Shown here piece by piece: positions 31,933 through 44,188 of a DNA stretch of 64,000 bases. The position numbers were made by a program, and so were the translations under genes. The notes under the pieces are model-generated. The model ran no database searches, was not told where the DNA came from, and worked only from the letters and a program-made list of their open reading frames with translations. Where the stretch lies: the NCBI GenBank assembly GCA_020438485.1, contig JAGQUM010000031.1, forward strand, positions 1 to 64,000, in the 5' to 3' direction. The stretch comes from Thermoleophilia bacterium (GTDB lineage: Bacteria; Actinomycetota; Thermoleophilia; Miltoncostaeales; Miltoncostaeaceae). How positions within the stretch are numbered: position 1 is the first letter of the stretch; each line of letters begins with the position of its first letter.

Positions 31933-33144
31933 GTGAGCGACGACGCCCCGCCCACGGCGACGAACGGCGGGCCGGACGGGTTCGCGGCCGCCCGGTGGCT
32001 GCGGGCCCGGGGGCTGGGCGCGCTCTTGGAGGGTACGTCCCTGGACGATCCGGGCCGCGGCCGCCTGCGGCTTCCGCTCGCCGTGATCCTGGCGTTCGTG
32101 GTGCTGGCCGAGATGCCCGCGACGGGACTGCCGGTGCTCCCGCTGACGCTGGCCGCGCTCACGGCCGTCGCGGTGGCGGCCGTCGCCGCCGCCCTGGCGC
32201 GCCGGACGGGGCGCGAGCGGCTGGTGGAGGGCGCCGCGTTCGTGGTCGTCCCCCCCACGCTGGCGTTGCTCGTCGGGCCGATGGATGCCGCCCAGGCCGA
32301 CGCCCTGGACATCAGCACGATGCGCCTGCGCGTGTACGTCGCCGTGGCGCTACTGGCTCAGCAACTGCTGCTGCTGGCCGTCGTGGTGGCCGTCAAGCGC
32401 TTCGACATGATGGCGTTCACTCGCTGGCTCGTGCGCGAACTGACCCAGTCGGTGTCGACCGCGGGGACGGCGCTTGCTCGCGTGGTGCCGCTGCTCATGA
32501 TCGCCCTGCTGCTCTCGTACTACACGGGGGAGCTGTGGCAGTCGGTCGGCAAGATGGGGGCGTTGCCGTTCTTCAGCGTGATCCTGCTGATGACGGCGCT
32601 CAGCGGCCTGTTCCTCGCCCGGCGCGAGCACTTCGACGTGGACGCCGCCGCCCGGTTCGAGACGCACGAGGAACTGGCGGATGCCCTGCGCGAGACGCCC
32701 GCGGCGGGCCACGCCGGCCGCCTGAACATGCCCGCTGCGTGCCCGCTGACCCCCCGCCAGGAGCGCAGCCTCCTGATCGCCGCGTCGGCGTCGCGGATGG
32801 TGCTGGCAACCCTCATCGGCCTGGTGGTGCTGGCGTTCTTCCTGGTCGTCGGGTGGCTCACCGTCGACGCCACGAGTGTCAGGGCCTGGTCGGCGGGCAG
32901 CCCGCGACCCATCTTCTCGTTCCACGGGGCCGGTCACGTCTACCTCCTGAGTTGGCAGCACGTGCGCGTCGCGGGATTCCTGTCGGCGTTCTCGGCCTTC
33001 TACTACGCCGTCGCGTCGGCCACCGACGCCACCATGCGCCAGGGCCTGCGCGACACGGCGGCCGAGAGCATCCGCGCCGGCTGCGCCCTGCGACTGGCCC
33101 TCCTGAACCCGCCGGCCGACGCGAGTGACGAGCCGCCCTTCTGA
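31933..33144 (+). CDS. Multi-pass membrane protein of unknown function
   Basis: A 403-residue protein with a short hydrophilic N terminus and about seven hydrophobic segments. One block lies at about residues 50-165, one around the strongly conserved-looking VVPLLMIALLLSYYTGELWQ, and a last pair after residue 300. A soluble stretch of about 70 residues (HFDVDAAARFETHEELADAL) lies between. I recognise no family. GTG 31933 is chosen because it follows a -10-like box by 6 nt; upstream frame is antisense to ilvN. It is divergent from ilvN. Confidence 0.75.
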   Translation: MSDDAPPTATNGGPDGFAAARWLRARGLGALLEGTSLDDPGRGRLRLPLAVILAFVVLAEMPATGLPVLPLTLAALTAVAVAAVAAALARRTGRERLVEGAAFVVVPPTLALLVGPMDAAQADALDISTMRLRVYVAVALLAQQLLLLAVVVAVKRFDMMAFTRWLVRELTQSVSTAGTALARVVPLLMIALLLSYYTGELWQSVGKMGALPFFSVILLMTALSGLFLARREHFDVDAAARFETHEELADALRETPAAGHAGRLNMPAACPLTPRQERSLLIAASASRMVLATLIGLVVLAFFLVVGWLTVDATSVRAWSAGSPRPIFSFHGAGHVYLLSWQHVRVAGFLSAFSAFYYAVASATDATMRQGLRDTAAESIRAGCALRLALLNPPADASDEPPF

Positions 33145-33248
33145 CCGGCCGCGGTGCCCGGTGCGGCCACGCCGGCCGGGGCAGGATGGCGGACCCGGGC
33201 GTCGAACATGCGCAGGTACCGCACCCGACGCACGAGGTGGAGACTCAC

Positions 33249-33635
33249 GTGACGCCCACGACCGTCGAGCAGAACGCCGCCCCGGCCATCAACGGCCACG
33301 CGGCCCCGCAGGCCGAGGTCCCCGCGCCGCCCCCTCCCCCCGCCGCCGAGTCGCCGGCGGGCCCGTCGCTGACCGCCCAGGCCCTCCAGCACGCCCGGAC
33401 CCTCGCGACCCGGGCGCCGTCCATCGCGGACGACGTCGTCGGGCACCGCCGCCTGTCGACCCGCGAGTGGCTGGTGCGGGCGTCGTTCGCCCTGTTCGCG
33501 CTCGTCGTGCTGGGCGTCGTCGTGTTCAGCGCCCTGGGCCTCATGGCGCCCGTGGAGGCCCTCGTGGTGCTGTCCCCCGTCACCGCCATGGTCGGGATGA
33601 TCGTCGGCGTCTTCCTGGGGGCCGACGACCGCTGA
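33249..33635 (+). CDS. Small proline-rich two-helix membrane protein
   Basis: 128 residues: a low-complexity Ala/Pro-rich N-terminal half (with a run of prolines), a short basic stretch, then two hydrophobic helices (about residues 78-98 and 103-122) and an acidic end. No family recognised. GTG 33249 has GGTGGAG about 8 nt upstream; an in-frame ATG at 33186 would add 21 residues and is the alternative. It lies 10 bp before the convergent LysR gene. Confidence 0.6.
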   Translation: MTPTTVEQNAAPAINGHAAPQAEVPAPPPPPAAESPAGPSLTAQALQHARTLATRAPSIADDVVGHRRLSTREWLVRASFALFALVVLGVVVFSALGLMAPVEALVVLSPVTAMVGMIVGVFLGADDR

Positions 33636-33645
33636 CCCCGGGGCG

Positions 33646-34578
33646 TCACGCCCCGCCGAGGACCGCGGGCGTCCCGTCCCCCCAACCCGCACGCTCGGCC
33701 GCGATGCGGACCTCCGCCGCGGCCCGCGCGCCCGTGTCCGACGCGCCCCGCTCAGGGGTGACCAGGCACAGCGTGATGTGCGCGTCCGGGCCCTCCACGG
33801 GGACGGCCACGACGCCCTCCCACGCCAGCGACCCGCTGGATGCCGGACCGAGAAACAGGTGCTCGGGGTGCCGCCTCAGGTGCGCCAGCAGCGGCTCGCG
33901 GCTCTCCTGCGCGGTCAGCACGTCCACCTGCGCGGCAAACCCCCGACGGGCGCAGAGGCGCCCCGGCAGCGCGTGAAACCCGGGGGCGAGTTCCTCGGAC
34001 ACCACGAGGATGGTGTGGCCCCGCAGGTCGTCGATGGCGACGGCCGGCCGGCCGGCCAGTGCGTGTCCGACGGCCGCGAACGCGGCCAGCGGCTCCCGGC
34101 GGATCACCTCCGACCGCAGCCCGGGTGCCCCGTCGAACTCCCTCACCAGCGCGAGGTCCGCCGCGCCGGTCCGCACGTCGTCCGCGGCCTGCGCGCACCA
34201 GCGCATCCGGGCGTCGACATCCGCAAGCCCCGCACCCTCCAGGTGGTCGAGGATGACCGGCAGTGCCTCGTACGCGACGCTGGCGGTGTAGGCCACGCGC
34301 GGCCGTGACCCGGCGCGCGCCGCGCGGGCGCGCCCCAGAGCGCGCTCCAGGTCGGCGAACACCGCCGCCAGGTCCTCGTGCAGGGCGCGGCCGGCGGCCG
34401 TCAGCTCCACCGAGCGGCTGGTGCGTCGCACCAGCGGAACCCCGAGCGATTGCTCGAGCTGCCGGATCTGGACGCTCAGCGCGGGCTGCGAGACGTGCAG
34501 CCCCTCCGCGGCCCTCGTGAAGCTGAGGCGTTCGGCGACGGCCGCGAAGTAGCGCAGCTGCCTGAGCGTCACGTCCAT
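33646..34578 (-). CDS. LysR-family transcriptional regulator
   Basis: A 310-residue regulator. The N-terminal winged helix MDVTLRQLRYFAAVAERLSF...AAEGLHVSQPALSVQIRQLE is followed by the two-subdomain effector region. It is divergent from the methyltransferase/monooxygenase pair, the classical arrangement in which a LysR protein controls the facing genes and itself. ATG 34578 has no SD but TAGCCT lies 6 nt upstream. The effector is unknown. Confidence 0.92.
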   Translation of the reverse strand: MDVTLRQLRYFAAVAERLSFTRAAEGLHVSQPALSVQIRQLEQSLGVPLVRRTSRSVELTAAGRALHEDLAAVFADLERALGRARAARAGSRPRVAYTASVAYEALPVILDHLEGAGLADVDARMRWCAQAADDVRTGAADLALVREFDGAPGLRSEVIRREPLAAFAAVGHALAGRPAVAIDDLRGHTILVVSEELAPGFHALPGRLCARRGFAAQVDVLTAQESREPLLAHLRRHPEHLFLGPASSGSLAWEGVVAVPVEGPDAHITLCLVTPERGASDTGARAAAEVRIAAERAGWGDGTPAVLGGA

Positions 34579-34584
34579 AAGGCA

Positions 34585-34599
34585 AGGCTATCGATCGAT
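34585..34599 (-). promoter_or_regulatory. LysR promoter (-10 TAGCCT) and adjoining palindrome
   Basis: TAGCCT (34585-34590, minus) is 6 nt before the LysR start. The 10-bp palindrome ATCGATCGAT (34590-34599) touches it and is a candidate autoregulatory LysR contact, though no clear T-N11-A box was resolved. Confidence 0.45.
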
Positions 34600-34611
34600 G
34601 GCGCATCCGTC

Positions 34612-34641
34612 TTGGACGTCCGCGTCCGCCGCACGTAGCGT
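34612..34641 (+). promoter_or_regulatory. Promoter of the methyltransferase gene
   Basis: TTGGAC (34612-34617), an 18-base spacer and TAGCGT (34636-34641) form a plausible housekeeping promoter. The resulting leader of about 26 nt carries GAGGTGA before the ATG at 34675. Confidence 0.5.
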
Positions 34642-34674
34642 CGGGCCACGACCGCGACGACGAGGTGACACACC

Positions 34675-35496
34675 ATGGGTTCCCGCCCCACCGGCATCGA
34701 CTACTCGGACATCCACCGCATCGACAGCCCCGCCAACCGGGCGCTGCGCGCGACCATCTGGGCCAAGGGGGACGACCTCGGCCAGCAGTCCTTCGCCACG
34801 CCGCGCTACTTCGACTTCATCGCCGCGCGGCTGGGCATGGGGCCCGGCATGCGCGTGCTCGACCTCGGCAGCGGCTCCGGCGGCCCGGCCGTGTACATCG
34901 CCGACCGCACGGGGTGCCGCCTGACGGGTCTGGAGGTGAACGAGGTCGGCGTGGAGGTGTCACGGTCGGTGGCGCAGAAGGCGGGCCTGGAAGATCGGGT
35001 CGACTTCGTGCTGGCCGACGGCATGGACATGCCGTTCGACGACGCGACGTTCGACGCCGTCTACAGCATGAACGTGATGAACGTCTTCCCGGACAAGGTC
35101 GCCCTGTTTCGCGAGGTGCGGCGCGTGCTGCGCCCCGGCGGCGTCTGGGCGTTCCTGTCGGGGACGTTCGAGTTCGGCCCCGGCGACGAGGAGGCCCGGC
35201 GGCTGTATGAGGCCGGCTACGCGATCCCCCAGTACACCGACGACCTCGCCGGCTACAAGCGCAAGCTGGCCGAGGCGGGGTTCGTGGTGGACGAGGTGAC
35301 CGAGTACATCAGCGACTACCGGGCCACGATCGCGCGCTGGTTGGACGGCTGGCGCGCCCACCGCGACGCCATCGCCGCCGAGCAGGGCGCCGACCAGACC
35401 GACCACCACATCGCGTACTTCGTGGCGTACCTGCGGATGATCGACGAGGGGAAGGCGTCGAACCACCTCGTGATCTCGCACCGCCCCGAGAACTGA
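34675..35496 (+). CDS. SAM-dependent methyltransferase (UbiE/class I)
   Basis: A 273-residue class I methyltransferase. Motif I is VLDLGSGSGG at about residues 62-71, followed by the acidic GLEVNE and the motif II/III area DGMDMPFDDATFDAVYSM. The C-terminal region is a helical lid. The overall pattern resembles small-molecule N- or C-methyltransferases of the UbiE/glycine-betaine type; the substrate is not deducible. It has a proper SD (GAGGTGA), unlike many neighbours. Divergent from the LysR regulator and followed after 32 bp by an FAD monooxygenase. Confidence 0.88.
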   Translation: MGSRPTGIDYSDIHRIDSPANRALRATIWAKGDDLGQQSFATPRYFDFIAARLGMGPGMRVLDLGSGSGGPAVYIADRTGCRLTGLEVNEVGVEVSRSVAQKAGLEDRVDFVLADGMDMPFDDATFDAVYSMNVMNVFPDKVALFREVRRVLRPGGVWAFLSGTFEFGPGDEEARRLYEAGYAIPQYTDDLAGYKRKLAEAGFVVDEVTEYISDYRATIARWLDGWRAHRDAIAAEQGADQTDHHIAYFVAYLRMIDEGKASNHLVISHRPEN

Positions 35497-35515
35497 ACGC
35501 GGCGCCCGAAGCCGG

Positions 35516-35521
35516 TACTCT
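35516..35521 (+). promoter_or_regulatory. -10 box (TACTCT) for a leaderless FAD-monooxygenase mRNA
   Basis: The box is exactly 7 nt before GTG 35529 with no SD, so this gene can be expressed independently of the methyltransferase upstream. Confidence 0.5.
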
Positions 35522-35528
35522 CGCCCCC

Positions 35529-36551
35529 GTGGACGTTGTCGTGGTCGGCGGGGGCATGGCGGGGCTCGTGCTGGCGCGCGGGCTGATGCTGCGCGGCCTG
35601 CGCCCCGTGGTGCTGGAGCGGGCCCCGGCCGACGCCACCATCCCGGGCCCGATCATGCTGCCGTTCCAGGCCTACGACCCCCTGGCCGAGATCGGCCTGC
35701 TCGACGCGATCCGCGCCCGGGGCCTCGACATCCCCCCGTTCCAGCGCGGCACGCCCGTCGCCGTCGGCGTGGGCCGCCAGATCGTCCTCGACGCCCTCCG
35801 CGAGGGGGTCGACGTACGCCACGGCGCCGAGGTGGTCGACCTGGCCCGCGACGGCGACCGGGTGGTCGGCTGCGTCATCCGCACCGCCGGCGGGGACGCC
35901 CAGACGCTACCCAGTGACCTGATGGTGGGCGCCGACGGGGCGCGCTCCACCGTCCGCGGGCTGGCGGGCTTCGACGCCGACGTGTTCGCGTTCGACACGG
36001 CCCAGCTGTCGTGGCGCAGCCCCGTGGTGCCCCGCGAGCCGTTCGGCATCCACTTCCTGCCCGACGGCCGTCAGGTGACCGTCGTGGGCTGGCCCGGCGG
36101 CGCGGCGGGCGGCTGGCAGATACCCCGCCTCGAGGGCGGCGCGCACGAGGCGACGGCCGCCGGATTCGACGAGTTCCGGCGCCGGTTCGCCTCGCTCGTG
36201 CCCATCGCCGCCGAACCGCTCGCCGCGATCGGTCCGGCCGACTGGTTCTACCGCGAGGCGCTGGGGGTGCGCTGCGACCGGTGGTGGCGTCCCGGCGTGG
36301 CGCTGATCGGCGAGGCGCTGCACGCCATGAACCCCGAGGCGGGCATCGGTTCCGGCCTGGGGATGGGTGACGCGCAGGCCCTCGCCGTGGCCGTGGCGCG
36401 GAACCCGGGGGACGCCGACGCCGCGTGCCGCGACTGGGAGCACTGGCGGCGCCCCGCCCTCGCGCCGTACCTGGCCATCGGCAGCGAGGGCGTGCGGGTG
36501 GTGCGCGGCGGCGAGCCGCGCCCCGAGGAGATCTGGCCGCCGGCCCCCTAG
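35529..36551 (+). CDS. FAD-dependent monooxygenase (PHBH-like)
   Basis: A 340-residue flavoprotein hydroxylase of the group A type. It has N-terminal VVVGGGMAGLVLARGLMLRG (dinucleotide-binding), central VGADGARSTVRGLAGF (DG motif) and GVALIGEALHAMNPEAGIGSGLGMGDAQALA (GD motif and flavin ribityl contacts). It probably oxidises an aromatic or quinone-like compound. Together with the methyltransferase it may form a small modification pathway under LysR control; that is inference. Its stop shares the CTAG at 36548-36551 with the convergent EcsC gene. Confidence 0.88.
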   Translation: MDVVVVGGGMAGLVLARGLMLRGLRPVVLERAPADATIPGPIMLPFQAYDPLAEIGLLDAIRARGLDIPPFQRGTPVAVGVGRQIVLDALREGVDVRHGAEVVDLARDGDRVVGCVIRTAGGDAQTLPSDLMVGADGARSTVRGLAGFDADVFAFDTAQLSWRSPVVPREPFGIHFLPDGRQVTVVGWPGGAAGGWQIPRLEGGAHEATAAGFDEFRRRFASLVPIAAEPLAAIGPADWFYREALGVRCDRWWRPGVALIGEALHAMNPEAGIGSGLGMGDAQALAVAVARNPGDADAACRDWEHWRRPALAPYLAIGSEGVRVVRGGEPRPEEIWPPAP

Positions 36552-37279
36552 GCGGCCCGCTGCGTCGGTGGCGTGGCCGGCAGCTGCGGGAATTCCTTGC
36601 GCGCCTGGTCGGCGATCTTCTTCATCAGGTACGCGTCGAGGCCCGCGCCCACGAGGCCTCCGACGATCGGGATGCCCTTACCCAGGCGGGTGAGGAACCG
36701 CTGCCCCACGCCCTTCAGCAGCCGGAAGGCGATGGCCTTGTTGACCATCATGAGCGCCCCGGGGGGGAGCTTGCGCAGCGCGAACGTCGTGATGCGGCCC
36801 ATGCCCGTCGTGATGCCCGCCTTGCCCAGCACCTCGTCGGCACGCTGGCCCGCCAGGGTCAGCAGCACCGCCGTGCGCACCTGCGGCTCGTTGACGTCGT
36901 AGCCGCGCAGGGAGGCGATGGCGCCCACCATGCGCGTGGCCTGGGCGTAGAACTCCACGACGTTCACGGGAACCGCGACGGGCATCGTCACGAACCCGCC
37001 GATGCTGGTCGCGAACCCGCCGACACCACCGCCCCGCACGCCCCTCGCGACGACCTTGTCGACCGCTTTCTCGACGTCCCCGGCCTCCCTCAACGCCCGG
37101 GCCGCGGTCTCGGCGGCCGAGTCGATGGGCCCGGCTCCGTCGATGCCCGTCCCCAGAAGCATCTGGACGAGCTTGTTGATGGCGCCGTCGTCGAGCGTCC
37201 CGTCCTTCGCGGCCTCCAGGGCGGACTTCGTGTTCTTGGCGGCCTTGCCGCCCGGTCTCAGCAGGTCGAGGAGCCCCAT
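36548..37279 (-). CDS. EcsC-family protein
   Basis: A 243-residue protein. The central segment GFATSIGGFVTMPVAVPVNVVEFYAQATRMVGAIASLRGYD and the C-terminal KGIPIVGGLVGAGLDAYLMKKIADQA are characteristic of the EcsC family, membrane-associated proteins of unclear role first named from a Bacillus protease-secretion locus. ATG 37279 (MGLLDLL) is chosen; an ATG slightly upstream is possible, with GGAGG lying between the two. The stop shares CTAG with the convergent monooxygenase. Confidence 0.82.
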   Translation of the reverse strand: MGLLDLLRPGGKAAKNTKSALEAAKDGTLDDGAINKLVQMLLGTGIDGAGPIDSAAETAARALREAGDVEKAVDKVVARGVRGGGVGGFATSIGGFVTMPVAVPVNVVEFYAQATRMVGAIASLRGYDVNEPQVRTAVLLTLAGQRADEVLGKAGITTGMGRITTFALRKLPPGALMMVNKAIAFRLLKGVGQRFLTRLGKGIPIVGGLVGAGLDAYLMKKIADQARKEFPQLPATPPTQRAA

Positions 37280-37412
37280 GGCGTCGTTCCCGTCCTCCAT
37301 CTCGTGGTCACGTCCTGGAACATGTACCCGTTGCGCCGGCAGCACCACTCACACGCAGGCGGACGTCGCCCGCGCATGCGAGAAGGCCACTCGCCCCGTC
37401 GCCTGCGTCTTG

Positions 37413-39479
37413 TCAGTGCGCGGCGACCGGCGCCCACCACCGCCGCGACGCGTCGCGCAGGGTGTTCGACCCGCAGTGAATCTCGCCGTCCCCGTTGTGG
37501 TAGATCACGACATCGTCGATGTCCTCCACCGACATCCCCGCCGCCGCGTAACGGGCGCGCACGGCTTCGGCGAACACGTCCACGCCTCCGATCCTCGGCC
37601 CGAACTGGGTGGGGCCGACGACACGCGTGGCGCTCCAGACGATGCTGTTGACCGGGCCGGGGATGAAGCTCACGAGGCCCGGCTGCGGCAGCTTTCCGCT
37701 TTCGAGCAGGCGCAGCGCCTGCCGGTATCGGCTCCGCGTCGTCGTCTGCTGCGCCGCGGGCAACCGCGCGAAGCCGGGCTCGGAGAGCACCTGGAGCATT
37801 TCGCGCCGAAGGTCCTCGGGGGTGCGTGGGTCCTCCGACCGGAACAGCGTGGGCACGCGGATGACGTCGGCGTCGGTGATGCCCACGGACCGCTTGAGGA
37901 GCGTGAGGCTGGCCGCGATCCGCCGGGCGGCGAATCGGTTGCGCTCGCGCAGCCGGGCGCTTGCGACGGCCTCGGCGACGGTCATGTCTTCGGGCATCGA
38001 GGCCCGCGGCTCCGGGCCATCCGCCCCGGGCGCCGCCGTATTCCTGCGCCCCGCACCCCCGGACAGGGCCGCCCCCGGAGCGTACTCGGGATGACGCATC
38101 ACGGGCTGTGCGCCGCCCCCCGCCGCGTTCACACGTTCCAGCAGTGCCATCGCGCCGTCCGGATCGGCCACGATCACCTTCCAGCCCCGAGCCGTGCCGG
38201 GTGCGGGCACGAACTGCATGAACTCGTCCACGTGTCCCACCGCGAGCCAGCCCGTGTCGACCAGCAACGGGGTCTGCATCCCCTGGGCCCTCAGCATGCG
38301 CAGCACGCGTGGCGAGGGCAGGGTCTGCTGGCCCATCCGGCCCATGACGATGCGGCCGGCGGGGTGGTTGCGCCCCGCGTGCCGGTACGGCGGGATGGTC
38401 TCCAGGTTGCCCATGGAGTCGAGCGTGGAGTCGTTGACCGTGCCGCCCATGCGCACCACGCCGAGGTCGCGACCCGCCATCCGGTAGAGGTAGCGCTGGG
38501 CCGGGCGGTCCTGGTCGGAGCGCAGCATCAGCCGGATCACGTGCGGCCTGCCACCCGGACCGGGCATCGACGCATACATCGGCTCGAAGTAGTCCTGGGC
38601 CCACGGATCACCGGCGTCCAGCACCGTGACACCCTCGGCCAGCGGATGGCGGCGCTGCGCAGCCGCGAACCACGCGGTGGTCCTGGCCGCCGCCGCGCGC
38701 AGCTTTGCGTTCAGCGCGGCGCGTGTGGCCGCCGTCTCCTCGGCGAGCAGCGCGGTGTTGGCGTTCTTCTCGCCCGACGGGGAGATGACCAGCCGTCGTG
38801 CCGCCTGTGTGTGGTCGTGCGTCAGCAGCGGGGCCACGCGCAGCACGACCGAGTCGGAGCTCCCGGCCGAAATGAGCGTGAGCCGGACCGTGCCGTCCCA
38901 GCGTCGAGCGTCGCGGACGATGTCGGTCGCCTCGATGCCCAGAACCACCCCGCGACGCATCTGCGCGGAGGTCAGCCGTCCCCGGAACGGCACGTAACGG
39001 CCCGCGTCCCTGATGAACACGCGCACGCGCCCGCGGCCTCGGCCCTGCGCGAGAAGCGCTCCCCCGCCCGAGGCGGGCGCGGACGGCGCGACAACGAGGG
39101 GCGCGAGGTCCTGAACGTCGGCCGCGCCGTTCACGCGCGCGTCGCGGGCGTCGTTACAGCCGTCGAGGCGGCGGTCGAGCACGCGTCCGCGTGCGTAGAG
39201 GACGCGGACGATCTGCTCGGTGCGCAGCAGCGCGTCGGTGCGGCGCGCGACCGCGGCGTACGTCGCCCGGCAGCGCCCGGAATCGTCGTCGAGGTTCGGC
39301 AGCATCAGGGCGCCACGCATGGGCGTCGCGATGTGCTCGCTGGCGTTGTCGGCCACCGTCACGCGACCGTCGCGGTTGGCGTCGACGCGCAGGTCGACGC
39401 TGCCGGCGGCGGGCGCCGTGGCCGCGAACGTCGCGATGGCGGCGATGGAGATGGCGAGGGGAAGGCGGCGGGTGTTCAT
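37413..39479 (-). CDS. Secreted protein-arginine deiminase (vertebrate PAD type)
   Basis: A 688-residue exported protein predicted to convert peptidyl-arginine to citrulline. A signal peptide covers about residues 1-25. It is followed by a PAD_M-like calcium domain (VDANRDGRV near 32-40, then RGALMLPNLDDD) and a C-terminal PAD catalytic domain. The catalytic set is present: D296 (in DPWAQDYFEPMY), H416 and D418 (GHVDEF), C669 (GEIHCGSNTLR). These correspond to D350, H471, D473 and C645 of human PAD4. It is longer than vertebrate PADs between H416 and C669 because of an inserted region around residues 445-500. It is unrelated to the Porphyromonas enzyme. ATG 39491 is an alternative start. Confidence 0.9.
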   Translation of the reverse strand: MNTRRLPLAISIAAIATFAATAPAAGSVDLRVDANRDGRVTVADNASEHIATPMRGALMLPNLDDDSGRCRATYAAVARRTDALLRTEQIVRVLYARGRVLDRRLDGCNDARDARVNGAADVQDLAPLVVAPSAPASGGGALLAQGRGRGRVRVFIRDAGRYVPFRGRLTSAQMRRGVVLGIEATDIVRDARRWDGTVRLTLISAGSSDSVVLRVAPLLTHDHTQAARRLVISPSGEKNANTALLAEETAATRAALNAKLRAAAARTTAWFAAAQRRHPLAEGVTVLDAGDPWAQDYFEPMYASMPGPGGRPHVIRLMLRSDQDRPAQRYLYRMAGRDLGVVRMGGTVNDSTLDSMGNLETIPPYRHAGRNHPAGRIVMGRMGQQTLPSPRVLRMLRAQGMQTPLLVDTGWLAVGHVDEFMQFVPAPGTARGWKVIVADPDGAMALLERVNAAGGGAQPVMRHPEYAPGAALSGGAGRRNTAAPGADGPEPRASMPEDMTVAEAVASARLRERNRFAARRIAASLTLLKRSVGITDADVIRVPTLFRSEDPRTPEDLRREMLQVLSEPGFARLPAAQQTTTRSRYRQALRLLESGKLPQPGLVSFIPGPVNSIVWSATRVVGPTQFGPRIGGVDVFAEAVRARYAAAGMSVEDIDDVVIYHNGDGEIHCGSNTLRDASRRWWAPVAAH

Positions 39480-39615
39480 GGCGTCCACCATGGAGGCGCC
39501 GCGTCACAGCTCCGCGACGAAACGGCCGCGGACTCGCCACGGCGAAGGGATCAACCGCGCGTGCACACGCCTTCCGCATCGTCGAGGCGCCCGGCATCGC
39601 CCCGCGGGCCACGCC

Positions 39616-41070
39616 CTATTCCCGCACCCGCTCCCGCAGAAGCTCCCCCACGCGCCCAGGGTCGGCGCGACCCTGGGTCGCCTTCATCGCCTGACCCACG
39701 AAGAAGCCGATGACCTTGTCCTTGCCATCGCGCAGCTGCTGCACCTGCGCGGGGTTGTCGGCGATGAGCCTGTCGACCAGCGCCTCCAACTCCCCTTCGT
39801 CGCTGATGGCGCCCAGGCCCTTGGCCTCGACGATCGCCCGCGGGTCCCCGCCGTTGGCGATGAGCTCCGCAAGCACGGCCTTCGCGTTGGGCATCGACAC
39901 CTCGCGGGCTTCGGCCATCGCGATGATCTCCCCCAGGGCCGCCGGGGTCACGTTCGACTCCCACGGCTCCTGGCCGCGCTCGCGCAGCTGGGCCCGCAGC
40001 TCGCCGCGCACCCAGTTGGCCGCCGACTTCGCGGGCGCTACCGCGGCGACCCGCTCGAAGTAGTCGCCCAGTTCGCGCGTCTCGGCCAGCACCTCAGCGT
40101 CCTCGAACGACAGGCCGCTGTCGGCCACCCAGCGCCGTCGCCGGTCAACCGGCGACTCGGGCAGCGATGCCCGCAGCTCCTCCACCCACGCCCTGTCAGG
40201 TGCGACTGACACCAGGTCGGGCTCGGGGAAGTAGCGGTAGTCGTGGGCCTCCTCCTTGCTGCGCAGGGAGTGGATCTCGCCGGTCACCGGGTCGTAGTGC
40301 AGTGTCTCCTGCGTGATGGTGCCACCGGCCTCCAGGATCGCCGTCTGGCGGGCAATCTCGGCCTGTATTCCGCGCTCGATGAACGTGAAGCTGTTCATGT
40401 TCTTGAGCTCGGTCTTGGTGCCCAGCCCGGTGCTGCCCGCGGGCCGGATACTGATGTTCGCGTCGGCCCGCATGGAGCCCTGCTCCATGTTGCCGTCGGT
40501 GATGCCCAGCTGCACCAGCGTAAGCCGGAGCTGACGCAGGAACGCGGCGGCGTCAGCCGCGTCTGACAGCTCGGGTTCCGTGACGATTTCGAGCAGGGGC
40601 GTGCCCCCGCGGTTGAAGTCGACGATGCTCTGCTCGGCCCCCGCCCGGCGGCCGTCACCGCCGACGTGGATGAGCTTCGCCGCGTCCTCCTCCAGGTGGG
40701 CGCGCGTGATGCCCAGTTCCTTCTCGCCGCCCTCCGTGAGGTACCGGAACCGCCCGGGCCCGCAGATGGGCTCGTCGAACTGGCTGATCTGGTACGCCTT
40801 GGGCAGGTCGGGATAGAAGTAGTTCTTGCGGTGGAACGTCGAGCGCTCGGGGATCTCGCAGCCCAGCGCGTGGCCCGCGATGATCGCCAGGCGCACGGCC
40901 TCGGCGTTGGTCACCGGCAGCGCACCGGGGTGGGCCAGGCACACCGGGCACGTGTGGACGTTGGGCTCGTCGCCGAAGCTCAGCGCGCAGCCGCAGAACA
41001 TCTTGGTGTTCGTGAGCAGCTGGGCGTGAATCTCGATGCCGATGACCGCCTCGTACGCGCGCGCGCTCAT
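39616..41070 (-). CDS. gatB: Asp-tRNA(Asn)/Glu-tRNA(Gln) amidotransferase subunit B
   Basis: tRNA-binding and kinase subunit of GatCAB, which amidates misacylated Glu-tRNA(Gln) or Asp-tRNA(Asn). The 484-residue protein has GIEIHAQLLTNTKMFCGC, HTCPVCLAHPGALPVTN (zinc-type cysteines), FHRKNYFYPDLPKAYQISQ and the C-terminal helical/YqeY-like tail. The ATG at 41070 overlaps the gatA stop as ATGA. It is last in gatC-gatA-gatB. Confidence 0.96.
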   Translation of the reverse strand: MSARAYEAVIGIEIHAQLLTNTKMFCGCALSFGDEPNVHTCPVCLAHPGALPVTNAEAVRLAIIAGHALGCEIPERSTFHRKNYFYPDLPKAYQISQFDEPICGPGRFRYLTEGGEKELGITRAHLEEDAAKLIHVGGDGRRAGAEQSIVDFNRGGTPLLEIVTEPELSDAADAAAFLRQLRLTLVQLGITDGNMEQGSMRADANISIRPAGSTGLGTKTELKNMNSFTFIERGIQAEIARQTAILEAGGTITQETLHYDPVTGEIHSLRSKEEAHDYRYFPEPDLVSVAPDRAWVEELRASLPESPVDRRRRWVADSGLSFEDAEVLAETRELGDYFERVAAVAPAKSAANWVRGELRAQLRERGQEPWESNVTPAALGEIIAMAEAREVSMPNAKAVLAELIANGGDPRAIVEAKGLGAISDEGELEALVDRLIADNPAQVQQLRDGKDKVIGFFVGQAMKATQGRADPGRVGELLRERVRE

Positions 41071-42518
41071 GCCGCGGCCTCCAGAGCCGGCGGGGCGGTG
41101 TCGAAGCCGATCGCCGCCTCCAGCGCGTGGGCGGCGTCGAACAACCGGTTCTCGCTGAACGCCGGACCCGACAGCTGCAGCCCCACGGGCATGCCGGCGT
41201 CGAGGCCGCACGGGATGGAGACGGACGGCAGCCCCGCCAGGCTGATCGGGATGGTGCACGTGTCCGACAGGTACATGTGCATCGGGTCGTCCGTGCGGGA
41301 CGCCAGCGGAAACGCCACGGACGGCGACGTCGGCGACGCGATCAGGTCGACGCTCTCGAACGCCCGGTCGAAGTCCTCCGCGATGCGGGTGCGCACGCGC
41401 TGCGCCTGCCCGTAGTACGCGTCGTAGTAGCCGCTGGCCAGCGCGAACGTGCCCAGCATGATGCGGCGCTTCACCTCGGCGCCGAAGCCCTCGGCGCGGG
41501 TGCGCTCGTAGTGCTCCGTGAGGTTGTCGGTGTCGGCCGACGAGTGGCCGTACCGGATGCCGTCGAAGCGGGCCAGGTTGGCCGAGCACTCGGCCGGGGC
41601 CAGGATGTAGTACGTGGACAGGCCGTGGCGGGAGTTCGGCAGCTCGACGGGCACGAGCGTCGCACCCAGGTGCTCGGCGCGGTCGAGCGCCTCGCGCACC
41701 GCGGCGCGGACTCCGTCGTCGGTGCCCTCGCCCATCAGCTCCTCCACCACGCCGATGCGGACGCCCGAAAGGTCAGTGGCGGTGGGCACGCAGACGGGCT
41801 CACGCAGGCCCACGCACGTGCTGTCCATGGGGTCGCGGCCCTCGATGTACGACAGCAGCAGCGCCGCGTCGGCGACGGTGCGGGCGAACGGGCCCACCTG
41901 GTCGAGCGACGACGCGAACGCGATGAGGCCGTACCGAGACACGGCGCCGTACGTGGGCTTCATCCCCACGATGCCGCACAGCGCGGCGGGCTGGCGGATG
42001 GAGCCGCCCGTGTCGGATCCCAGGGACCACGGGGCCTGGCGGGCCGCGACGGCCGACGCCGACCCGCCCGAGGACCCCCCGGGCACACGGCCCGTGTCCC
42101 ACGGGTTGAGCGTGGGCCCGTATGCCGAGTTCTCGGTGCTGGAGCCCATGGCGAACTCATCCATGTTCGTCTTGCCCACGACGATCGCGCCGGCCTCCTC
42201 CAGACGGGCCACGCACGTGGCGGTGTAGAGGGGCCGGAACCCCTCCAGCATCCTTGAACCCGACGTGGTGACCAGGTCCCTGGTCACCAGTGCGTCCTTG
42301 ACGGCGATCGGCACGCCGGCCAGGGGCGGCTTGTCGGCCATCGCATCGATCTCTCGAGCCCGTGCCCGGGCGGCGTCGGCGTTGAGCGCGAGGTAGCTGT
42401 TCCAGCGGTCGTCCTCGCAGCGGGCCAGATGGGCGTCGACCAGCTCGGCCGACGTCATCTCGCCCGCCCGGACGGCGGCGATCTGCTGCGTCGCGGTGAG
42501 ATCGGTGGGGGCGCTCAT
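41067..42518 (-). CDS. gatA: Asp-tRNA(Asn)/Glu-tRNA(Gln) amidotransferase subunit A
   Basis: Glutamine amidase subunit of GatCAB, releasing ammonia for transamidation. The 483-residue protein is an amidase-signature enzyme with the Lys-Ser-Ser triad: VAVKD (as PIAVKDALVT), then GGSSGGSASAVAARQAPWSLGSDTGGS. GKTNMDEFAMGSSTENSAYG is the GatA hallmark. Overlaps of 4 bp with gatC and gatB indicate coupled production of the three subunits. Confidence 0.96.
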   Translation of the reverse strand: MSAPTDLTATQQIAAVRAGEMTSAELVDAHLARCEDDRWNSYLALNADAARARAREIDAMADKPPLAGVPIAVKDALVTRDLVTTSGSRMLEGFRPLYTATCVARLEEAGAIVVGKTNMDEFAMGSSTENSAYGPTLNPWDTGRVPGGSSGGSASAVAARQAPWSLGSDTGGSIRQPAALCGIVGMKPTYGAVSRYGLIAFASSLDQVGPFARTVADAALLLSYIEGRDPMDSTCVGLREPVCVPTATDLSGVRIGVVEELMGEGTDDGVRAAVREALDRAEHLGATLVPVELPNSRHGLSTYYILAPAECSANLARFDGIRYGHSSADTDNLTEHYERTRAEGFGAEVKRRIMLGTFALASGYYDAYYGQAQRVRTRIAEDFDRAFESVDLIASPTSPSVAFPLASRTDDPMHMYLSDTCTIPISLAGLPSVSIPCGLDAGMPVGLQLSGPAFSENRLFDAAHALEAAIGFDTAPPALEAAA

Positions 42519-42796
42519 CCCATCCTCCCCACGCTGAACCCGCCGGCGGCCACGCGCGGGGCCTCCCGCAGTGCCTCCTCGGGCGACAGGCTCGGGCGCG
42601 GCTCGTCGGTGCGCAGCACGTTCTCCAGGTGGATCACGTGCGTGGTGGGCGCGACCCCGGCGAGGTCGAGGGACTGGATCTGGTCGACGTGGTCGAGGAT
42701 CCCGGACAGTTCGGCCCGCATGGTCTCGACCTCGTCGTCCGTGAGGGCGAGGCGCGAGAGGCGGGCGACATGGCGTACGACGTCTGCGTCAATCAC
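42515..42796 (-). CDS. gatC: Asp-tRNA(Asn)/Glu-tRNA(Gln) amidotransferase subunit C
   Basis: Small helper subunit that wraps GatA and GatB. 93 residues from GTG 42796, with the family core VVRHVARLSRLALTDDEVE and the C-terminal LRTDEPRPSLSPEEALREAP. An ATG at 42805 lies three codons upstream, but the TACCAT box at 42804-42809 overlaps that codon and sits exactly 7 nt before GTG 42796. The leaderless rule and the family's usual N terminus both favour GTG. Confidence 0.88.
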   Translation of the reverse strand: MIDADVVRHVARLSRLALTDDEVETMRAELSGILDHVDQIQSLDLAGVAPTTHVIHLENVLRTDEPRPSLSPEEALREAPRVAAGGFSVGRMG

Positions 42797-42803
42797 GCGC
42801 GGC

Positions 42804-42809
42804 ATGGTA
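42804..42809 (-). promoter_or_regulatory. -10 box (TACCAT) for the gatCAB operon
   Basis: The box is 7 nt before GTG 42796. Because it contains the alternative ATG, it decides the start of gatC. No SD is present. Confidence 0.5.
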
Positions 42810-42829
42810 CCCCACGCCGCGCGCGGACC

Positions 42830-44188
42830 TCACGCCGGGGGCGTCGTGCCGATCAGGAACCCCACCAACACCAGCACCACCACGCCCAGGGCCAGCTCGA
42901 TGCCCACGGTGGACTGAAGGCGTCGCGCGGCGCCCGCGTCATCCTCGTCCAGGCCCAGGCCGGCGCGCTCCAGTCGGGGGTGCAGCACGAAGCGGTTGTA
43001 GCCCGCGACGCCGCACATCAGGGCGAACACGGCGACCTTGGCGATCAGGATCCACCCGTACGCGGTGTCGACCAGGTTGCCGAACTCCCCCACCTCCGCG
43101 ATGGCCCGGTACACGCCGGTCAGCACGAGCGCGGCGACGCACGCCAGGCCCAGGGCCGAGAACCGCACGACGGACGCCGACACCAGCCGCAGCCGGTCGG
43201 CGTCGCCCAGCCGCAGCCCCGCCGGGACGAGCAGCGACAGGATGCCCGCAAGGCCGCCAAGCCACCCCGCGGACGCCAGCCCGTGGACGGCGTCGAGCAC
43301 CACGTTCAGCCCCGGCTCGTTGCCGGTGCCGGCGTGCCCCGCCCACGCCACGAGGCACAGGGCGACGGCGCCCGGCAGCCCCAGCGCGGCGGCCTGCCAG
43401 ACCGGCGGCAGCGGGTCGTCGCCGTCCTCGCGGCGGCTGATCCACAACCCCAGGGCGAGCGTGACGAGCCCCAGGACGGTGATGGCCAGCGACGCCTGCC
43501 CGATCCGGGTGTGCCGCAGCAGGCCGCCCATGTCGCGCGAGTCGAGCGCCCAGAGCGTGCCCAGCACGGTGGCCAGCAGGCCGACGCCCAGCGCGGACAC
43601 GCACACCCACAGCGCGTCCCACCAGCGGTTGGCGGCCCATTCCAGGATGGGGAACGCGCGCGAGCGGAACCCGTCCGCGTCGCCGGCGGGGCGCCCGGGG
43701 GGCGTCAGGCCGCCCTCGCGCCACGCCCGGCCCGCCACGCCCCAGCGGAACGCGACCAGGCCCACAAGGAACGCCAGCGCCGCCACCGTCAGCCCGCGGC
43801 CCGCGGACGCCGTGGCGCGTGCCGCGGGGCGGTCCGGCGAGGGGGTGCCGGGCCTGGCGCCGATCAGCCCGGAGCTGACGTGGCCGTCGCGGCTGAGTGC
43901 CCGCCACGCGATGAGCTCCGGCGGCTGACCGGCTTCGATGGGCACGCTCACGACCTGGTCGTCGCCGTCGCGCAGCACCGGGCGCCTGCTGATGGTCCGC
44001 CCTTCCGCGTTGACCACCTCGACGGTGACCTGGCGGATCTCGACGGGCGCGTCGAACGACAGCGTGACGCTGCCGGCCCCGCGATCGACGGCCGTGACGC
44101 GGGCCTGAGCCGCCGCCGACGACGCCCACGTCAGCAGGGCGATGAGAGTGAGCAGCGCGACGGCCCAGTGCGCCGCCGGGCGGCTCAG
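42830..44188 (-). CDS. CopC/CopD-fusion copper transport protein (apparent CTG start)
   Basis: A 452-residue exported membrane protein. A signal peptide (AVALLTLIALLTWA then SSAAAQA) precedes a CopC-like beta domain (SVTLSFDAPVEI ... ALSRDGHVSSG). About eight helices follow, with the CopD core (LDAVHGLASAGWLGGLAGI). The CopC copper-binding N-terminal His seems absent, while the SRDGH histidine remains. No ATG, GTG or TTG exists in frame between the signal peptide and distant upstream sequence. The only sensible start is CTG 44188, which overlaps the stop of a 28-residue upstream ORF as CTGA. Likely role: copper uptake or delivery for cuproenzymes. Confidence 0.78.
   Translation of the reverse strand: MSRPAAHWAVALLTLIALLTWASSAAAQARVTAVDRGAGSVTLSFDAPVEIRQVTVEVVNAEGRTISRRPVLRDGDDQVVSVPIEAGQPPELIAWRALSRDGHVSSGLIGARPGTPSPDRPAARATASAGRGLTVAALAFLVGLVAFRWGVAGRAWREGGLTPPGRPAGDADGFRSRAFPILEWAANRWWDALWVCVSALGVGLLATVLGTLWALDSRDMGGLLRHTRIGQASLAITVLGLVTLALGLWISRREDGDDPLPPVWQAAALGLPGAVALCLVAWAGHAGTGNEPGLNVVLDAVHGLASAGWLGGLAGILSLLVPAGLRLGDADRLRLVSASVVRFSALGLACVAALVLTGVYRAIAEVGEFGNLVDTAYGWILIAKVAVFALMCGVAGYNRFVLHPRLERAGLGLDEDDAGAARRLQSTVGIELALGVVVLVLVGFLIGTTPPA

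Follow-up and report, generated by a model that had tools for sequence, protein, structure and literature searches.

A probably secreted two-domain protein-arginine deiminase of the actinobacterial/fungal type in a Thermoleophilia bacterium

A three-domain type of protein-arginine deiminase (PAD, PADI) has been described from animals and late cyanobacteria, and a two-domain type from fungi, actinobacteria and other bacteria, the latter without calcium sites 2 and 4 and with a triple-His linker motif (PMC8826395; Cummings et al. 2021). The cyanobacterial branch is the one discussed as the source of animal PADs. Activity has been reported for fungal two-domain and cyanobacterial three-domain enzymes, the cyanobacterial ones being strictly calcium-dependent, and a different mode of calcium regulation was suggested for the two-domain type (PMC8826395). 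The same study gave the calcium-switch aspartate as glycine in actinobacterial and fungal PADs, a statement based on six sequences of the actinobacterial group.

This study focused on a 688-aa protein (P0001) encoded on the minus strand at 37413..39479, read from an ATG at 39479, within a window of 64,000 nucleotides from a Thermoleophilia bacterium; the analysis covered 33000..44000, with the remainder of the window catalogued as ORFs. The open reading frame, proposed as a PAD gene in an earlier note, is real, and its similarity to the family is far beyond chance: the Pfam PAD profile PF03068 matches residues 207–682 over 390 of its 395 positions (E=3e-86), scoring 290 bits against a gathering cut-off of 25, phmmer pairs the protein with solved human PADs at E=2.5e-32, and a profile of six bacterial sequences matches the PADs of the PDB at about 1e-72. 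The only solved relatives found by phmmer and profile searches of the PDB are PAD1–4 and PAD6, its relatives are annotated as protein-arginine deiminases, and no NCBIfam model matched. Assignment to agmatine deiminase, a possibility that the earlier note had flagged, or to a Porphyromonas-type PAD can be set aside, as Pfam gave no match to PF04371 (PAD_porph/agmatine deiminase) at E<=0.01; the protein is a true PAD. AlphaFold models of the full-length protein and of the catalytic domain, built from few alignment rows, have mean pLDDT values of 52 and 56; all their listed PDB matches are PADs, with human PADs on top, so that the models back the PAD fold but are too weak for placing calcium and do not back the calcium sites.

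The N-terminus (residues 1–25, 39405..39479) has the look of a signal peptide, as had been claimed, passing from MNTRR through the 14-residue stretch LPLAISIAAIATFA (residues 6–19, where hydropathy peaks at a mean of 2.1) to APA, followed by AGS, and the protein is probably exported. It is followed by a divergent PAD_M (middle) domain at residues 28–206 (38862..39398). Pfam PAD_M matched the isolated fragment in the correct place but below cut-off (E=0.03), so that of the two profiles proposed earlier, PAD_C matched clearly (E=3e-86) while PAD_M fell short. However, hhalign of a 44-row profile against the middle domain of human PAD4 gave E=1.5e-4 and a score of 32.8 with the ligands in register, compared with scores of at most 18.9 among 12 listed of 40 shuffles; by profile comparison, the domain is homologous to that of human PAD4, yet divergent. 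PAD_N is missing: the start of PAD_M is preceded by no more than about 30 residues, those of the signal-like stretch. The catalytic PAD_C domain spans residues 207–688 (37413..38861) and includes an inserted segment about 54 aa long (at approximately 549–602, 37674..37835), recognized by the length of the interval corresponding to PAD4 575–589, which is 62 aa here and 14 aa in human PAD4. The extra insertion reported earlier is therefore present but not peculiar to this protein, since it is common to all Streptomyces relatives (54–66 aa in 29 of 29 rows of the Streptomyces clade); in L009, a PAD of the sister species, the interval is 19 aa.

Residues were mapped in a 46-row alignment with human PAD4, the site-bearing parts of the PAD4 row agreeing with the PDB alignments (phmmer, profile). 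Calcium sites are named as in the PAD4 and PADI2 crystal structures, and were assigned in part after PMC8826395. The catalytic set of the earlier note is exact, D296, H416, D418 and C669 aligning with PAD4 D350, H471, D473 and C645; the substrate-binding R325 corresponds to PAD4 R374, and W293 to W347. Calcium site 1 is retained (Q295, E299, E360), as are all tested ligands of sites 3–5 (N62, D64, D66, D110, D113, D121, D124, E183), and the switch position (PADI2 D389, PAD4 D388) is D338. Site 2 is absent, PAD4 E351, D369, S370 and N373 being replaced by Y297, R320, S321 and D324, and the PAD4 substrate contact R372 is Q323. The VDANRDG motif (residues 32–38) does align with the calcium loop region of PAD_M, and so is of the kind supposed, although it sits in a divergent middle domain and in a protein without PAD_N. 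It overlaps DANRDGRVTVAD (residues 33–44, 39348..39383), the equivalent of the PADI2 Ca6 loop, where position 9 is T41 rather than the acidic D of most relatives; by analogy with dockerin-like loops, D44 at position 12 might substitute for it. The calcium dependence raised earlier is thus plausible from the retained site 1, sites 3–5 and D338, but may be weaker or different, because site 2 is lost, R372 is replaced and the loop carries T41.

Across the 44 two-domain rows, the residue reported as glycine in this type is more often aspartate (29 rows, 28 besides the present protein) than glycine (15 rows). The published generalization is therefore too broad: glycine does not define the two-domain type and D338 does not disqualify the protein from it, while the occurrence of aspartate in the 28 others means that it is not diagnostic of the animal/cyanobacterial type either. 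At least three changes between D and G have occurred at this position on the unrooted PAD tree. It could be speculated, although we rather doubt it, that the switch aspartate of two-domain actinobacterial PADs is ancestral and has given way to glycine on three or more separate occasions, the present protein being a secreted, switch-competent form without site 2. If this were true, secreted bacterial PADs would provide a natural series for the evolution of the animal PAD calcium switch. A separate set, the Actinomadura-type PADs L002–L007 and the plasmid PAD L020, lacks the acids of site 1 (G/K/G or Q/K/G for Q349/E353/E411) and has G at the switch, with the catalytic set retained; these are perhaps calcium-independent PADs, judging by these replacements.

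The tree covers actinobacterial PADs and human PAD4 (fungal and cyanobacterial PADs being left out), is unrooted and involves long branches. In it, the protein joins L009 at 98/94 and then the Streptomyces clade at 92/80, apart from human PAD4 and L051, which form a 100/100 group of their own. Placing it with Streptomyces to the exclusion of L009 was not rejected by the AU test (p=0.154), and this arrangement is favoured by the long insertion that the two share and L009 does not. By its domains and its place in the tree, it is a new and divergent member of the two-domain actinobacterial/fungal PADI type known from the literature. Its catalytic residues, site 1, sites 3–5 and D338 are the same as in human PADs, and would suit membership of the animal/cyanobacterial three-domain type, but we give that reading next to no credence: PAD_N is missing, PAD_M is divergent and under the Pfam cut-off, site 2 is lost, the grouping is with actinobacterial PADs and not human PAD4, and the linker motif is THDHTQ (H-D-H; HHH or QHH in close relatives), not MTPNTQ. 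For most of the same reasons the description 'vertebrate type' in the earlier note had to be given up, and with it the suggested link to the source of animal PADs; that branch is cyanobacterial (PMC8826395), and the present protein lies in the other one, without direct bearing on the origin of animal PADs.

We have good confidence that the protein is secreted and is a PAD of the two-domain actinobacterial/fungal type, probably activated by calcium. Its N-terminal signal would direct export, after which Ca2+ at the middle-domain sites 3–5 and at site 1, which adjoins the active site, would, as the conserved ligands suggest, help via D338 to order the active-site cleft. An arginine residue would be held by D296, D418 and R325 while C669 attacks the guanidinium carbon and, together with H416, releases ammonia and leaves peptidyl-citrulline, cysteine attack on guanidinium with these products being the established chemistry of PADs. 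Acting outside the cell, and presumably on proteins, it would strip positive charge from exported proteins of its own cell or of neighbours, or from cationic peptides. A version of this that overlaps with it, sharing a secreted two-domain PAD and differing only on calcium switching, is that the enzyme is calcium-independent or holds calcium structurally, being constitutively active in extracellular surroundings that never run short of calcium, with the ions stabilizing the fold and not acting as a switch. An extracellular site would reduce the use of a switch, the switch residue is D or G among close relatives, and the absence of site 2 matches the different calcium regulation suggested in PMC8826395; yet D338 and all tested ligands of site 1 and sites 3–5 are retained, and we consider this version a serious but less favoured possibility. 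A scavenging role, in which arginine in extracellular peptides is deiminated for ammonia and not to modify particular proteins, would fit the secretion signal and the lack of a conserved partner or substrate gene adjoining, but appears improbable, as each residue would give just one ammonia, a poor return, and citrulline peptides would be left over, linked uptake or citrulline genes were not seen, and the fold is that of PADs that act on proteins.

Within the order, PADs were found in 2 of 42 genomes (in this genus only), within the class in 6 of 399 and within the phylum in 3 of 396, and in the order of Streptomyces in 50 of 294. The genome and that of its sister species (G011) have GatB proteins that are 87% identical, but PADs that are only about 36–41% identical. 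The gatB locus of G011 has no PAD. From the translations, we read the genes that separate gatB from the FAD/EcsC genes there as toxin-antitoxin-like genes, one for a membrane protein and one for a GntR/aminotransferase-type regulator, and the FAD/EcsC genes are themselves in a rearranged order. The gene thus occupies a variable site, and this, with the strong divergence from the sister-species PADs, suggests either lateral gain, which is the simplest account, or rapid turnover. Old paralogy followed by losses, or fast evolution, is also to be allowed for. The base composition of the gene is that of its host, with no foreign mark, scans for sigma-70 promoters and terminators were empty, and no PAD relatives were found in viral contigs or phage records. 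An all-against-all ORF comparison of 20 PAD loci returned as conserved neighbours mainly PAD itself and out-of-frame shadows; a nearby response-regulator-like gene was dropped as a conserved partner, being shared by no loci other than those of the Actinomadura group and of a single Streptomyces plasmid (L020). The G011 genome (about 2.9 Mb) carries three highly divergent PAD genes (L009, L010, L011), none at the gatB locus and two on very long branches. Large linear plasmids of Streptomyces and Embleya also carry PAD genes (L019, L020, L021), one near transposases, which is consistent with lateral spread, and genomes with a PAD practically identical to a Streptomyces plasmid PAD belong to the same phylum as the present host but a different class.

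A PAD of the animal/cyanobacterial kind was seen in another genome of the same class (G757, L060:8837-10780, plus strand; also L051). This 647-aa protein matches Pfam PAD at 4.6e-120, PAD_M at 7.2e-17 and human PAD4 at 2e-109, groups with human PAD4 at 100/100, retains the site 2 ligands, R372 and D388, and has about 95 extra N-terminal residues with no obvious signal peptide, while several ligands of sites 3–5 appear lost. The contig that carries it measures 722 kb, and the genome has 1% contamination. Since this type was described as limited to late cyanobacteria and animals (PMC8826395), its presence in an actinobacterium is a more surprising by-product than the protein under study.

Bacterial protein citrullination has hardly been studied, and we know of no substrates of exported PADs. 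The identification of the present protein is sound but rather unremarkable, as its branch has been described before; to this branch it adds a deep, non-Streptomyces actinobacterial lineage. Porphyromonas PPAD and agmatine deiminase are like PADs only in a distant pentein-fold guanidino chemistry, and differ in belonging to PF04371. With vertebrate PAD1–4 and the late cyanobacterial PADI it has in common the Asp-His-Asp-Cys set, R374, sites 1 and 3–5 and the switch aspartate, but it is without PAD_N and site 2, has R372 replaced and a divergent middle domain, and is predicted to be exported. It differs from the two-domain type in its H-D-H linker in place of the triple-His motif and in D338, where PMC8826395 states glycine but many Streptomyces also have D, and from the Streptomyces members in T41 for D in the DANRDG loop and in extra inserted segments in the middle domain (about 20 aa) and near residue 470 (about 25 aa). 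The closest described systems are nevertheless these two-domain PADIs, for example WP_320592483.1 of Streptomyces sp. KN37, with about 40–44% identity, and it shares with the Streptomyces enzymes a signal-like N-terminus, a divergent PAD_M joined to PAD_C without PAD_N, the loss of site 2 and the long insertion.
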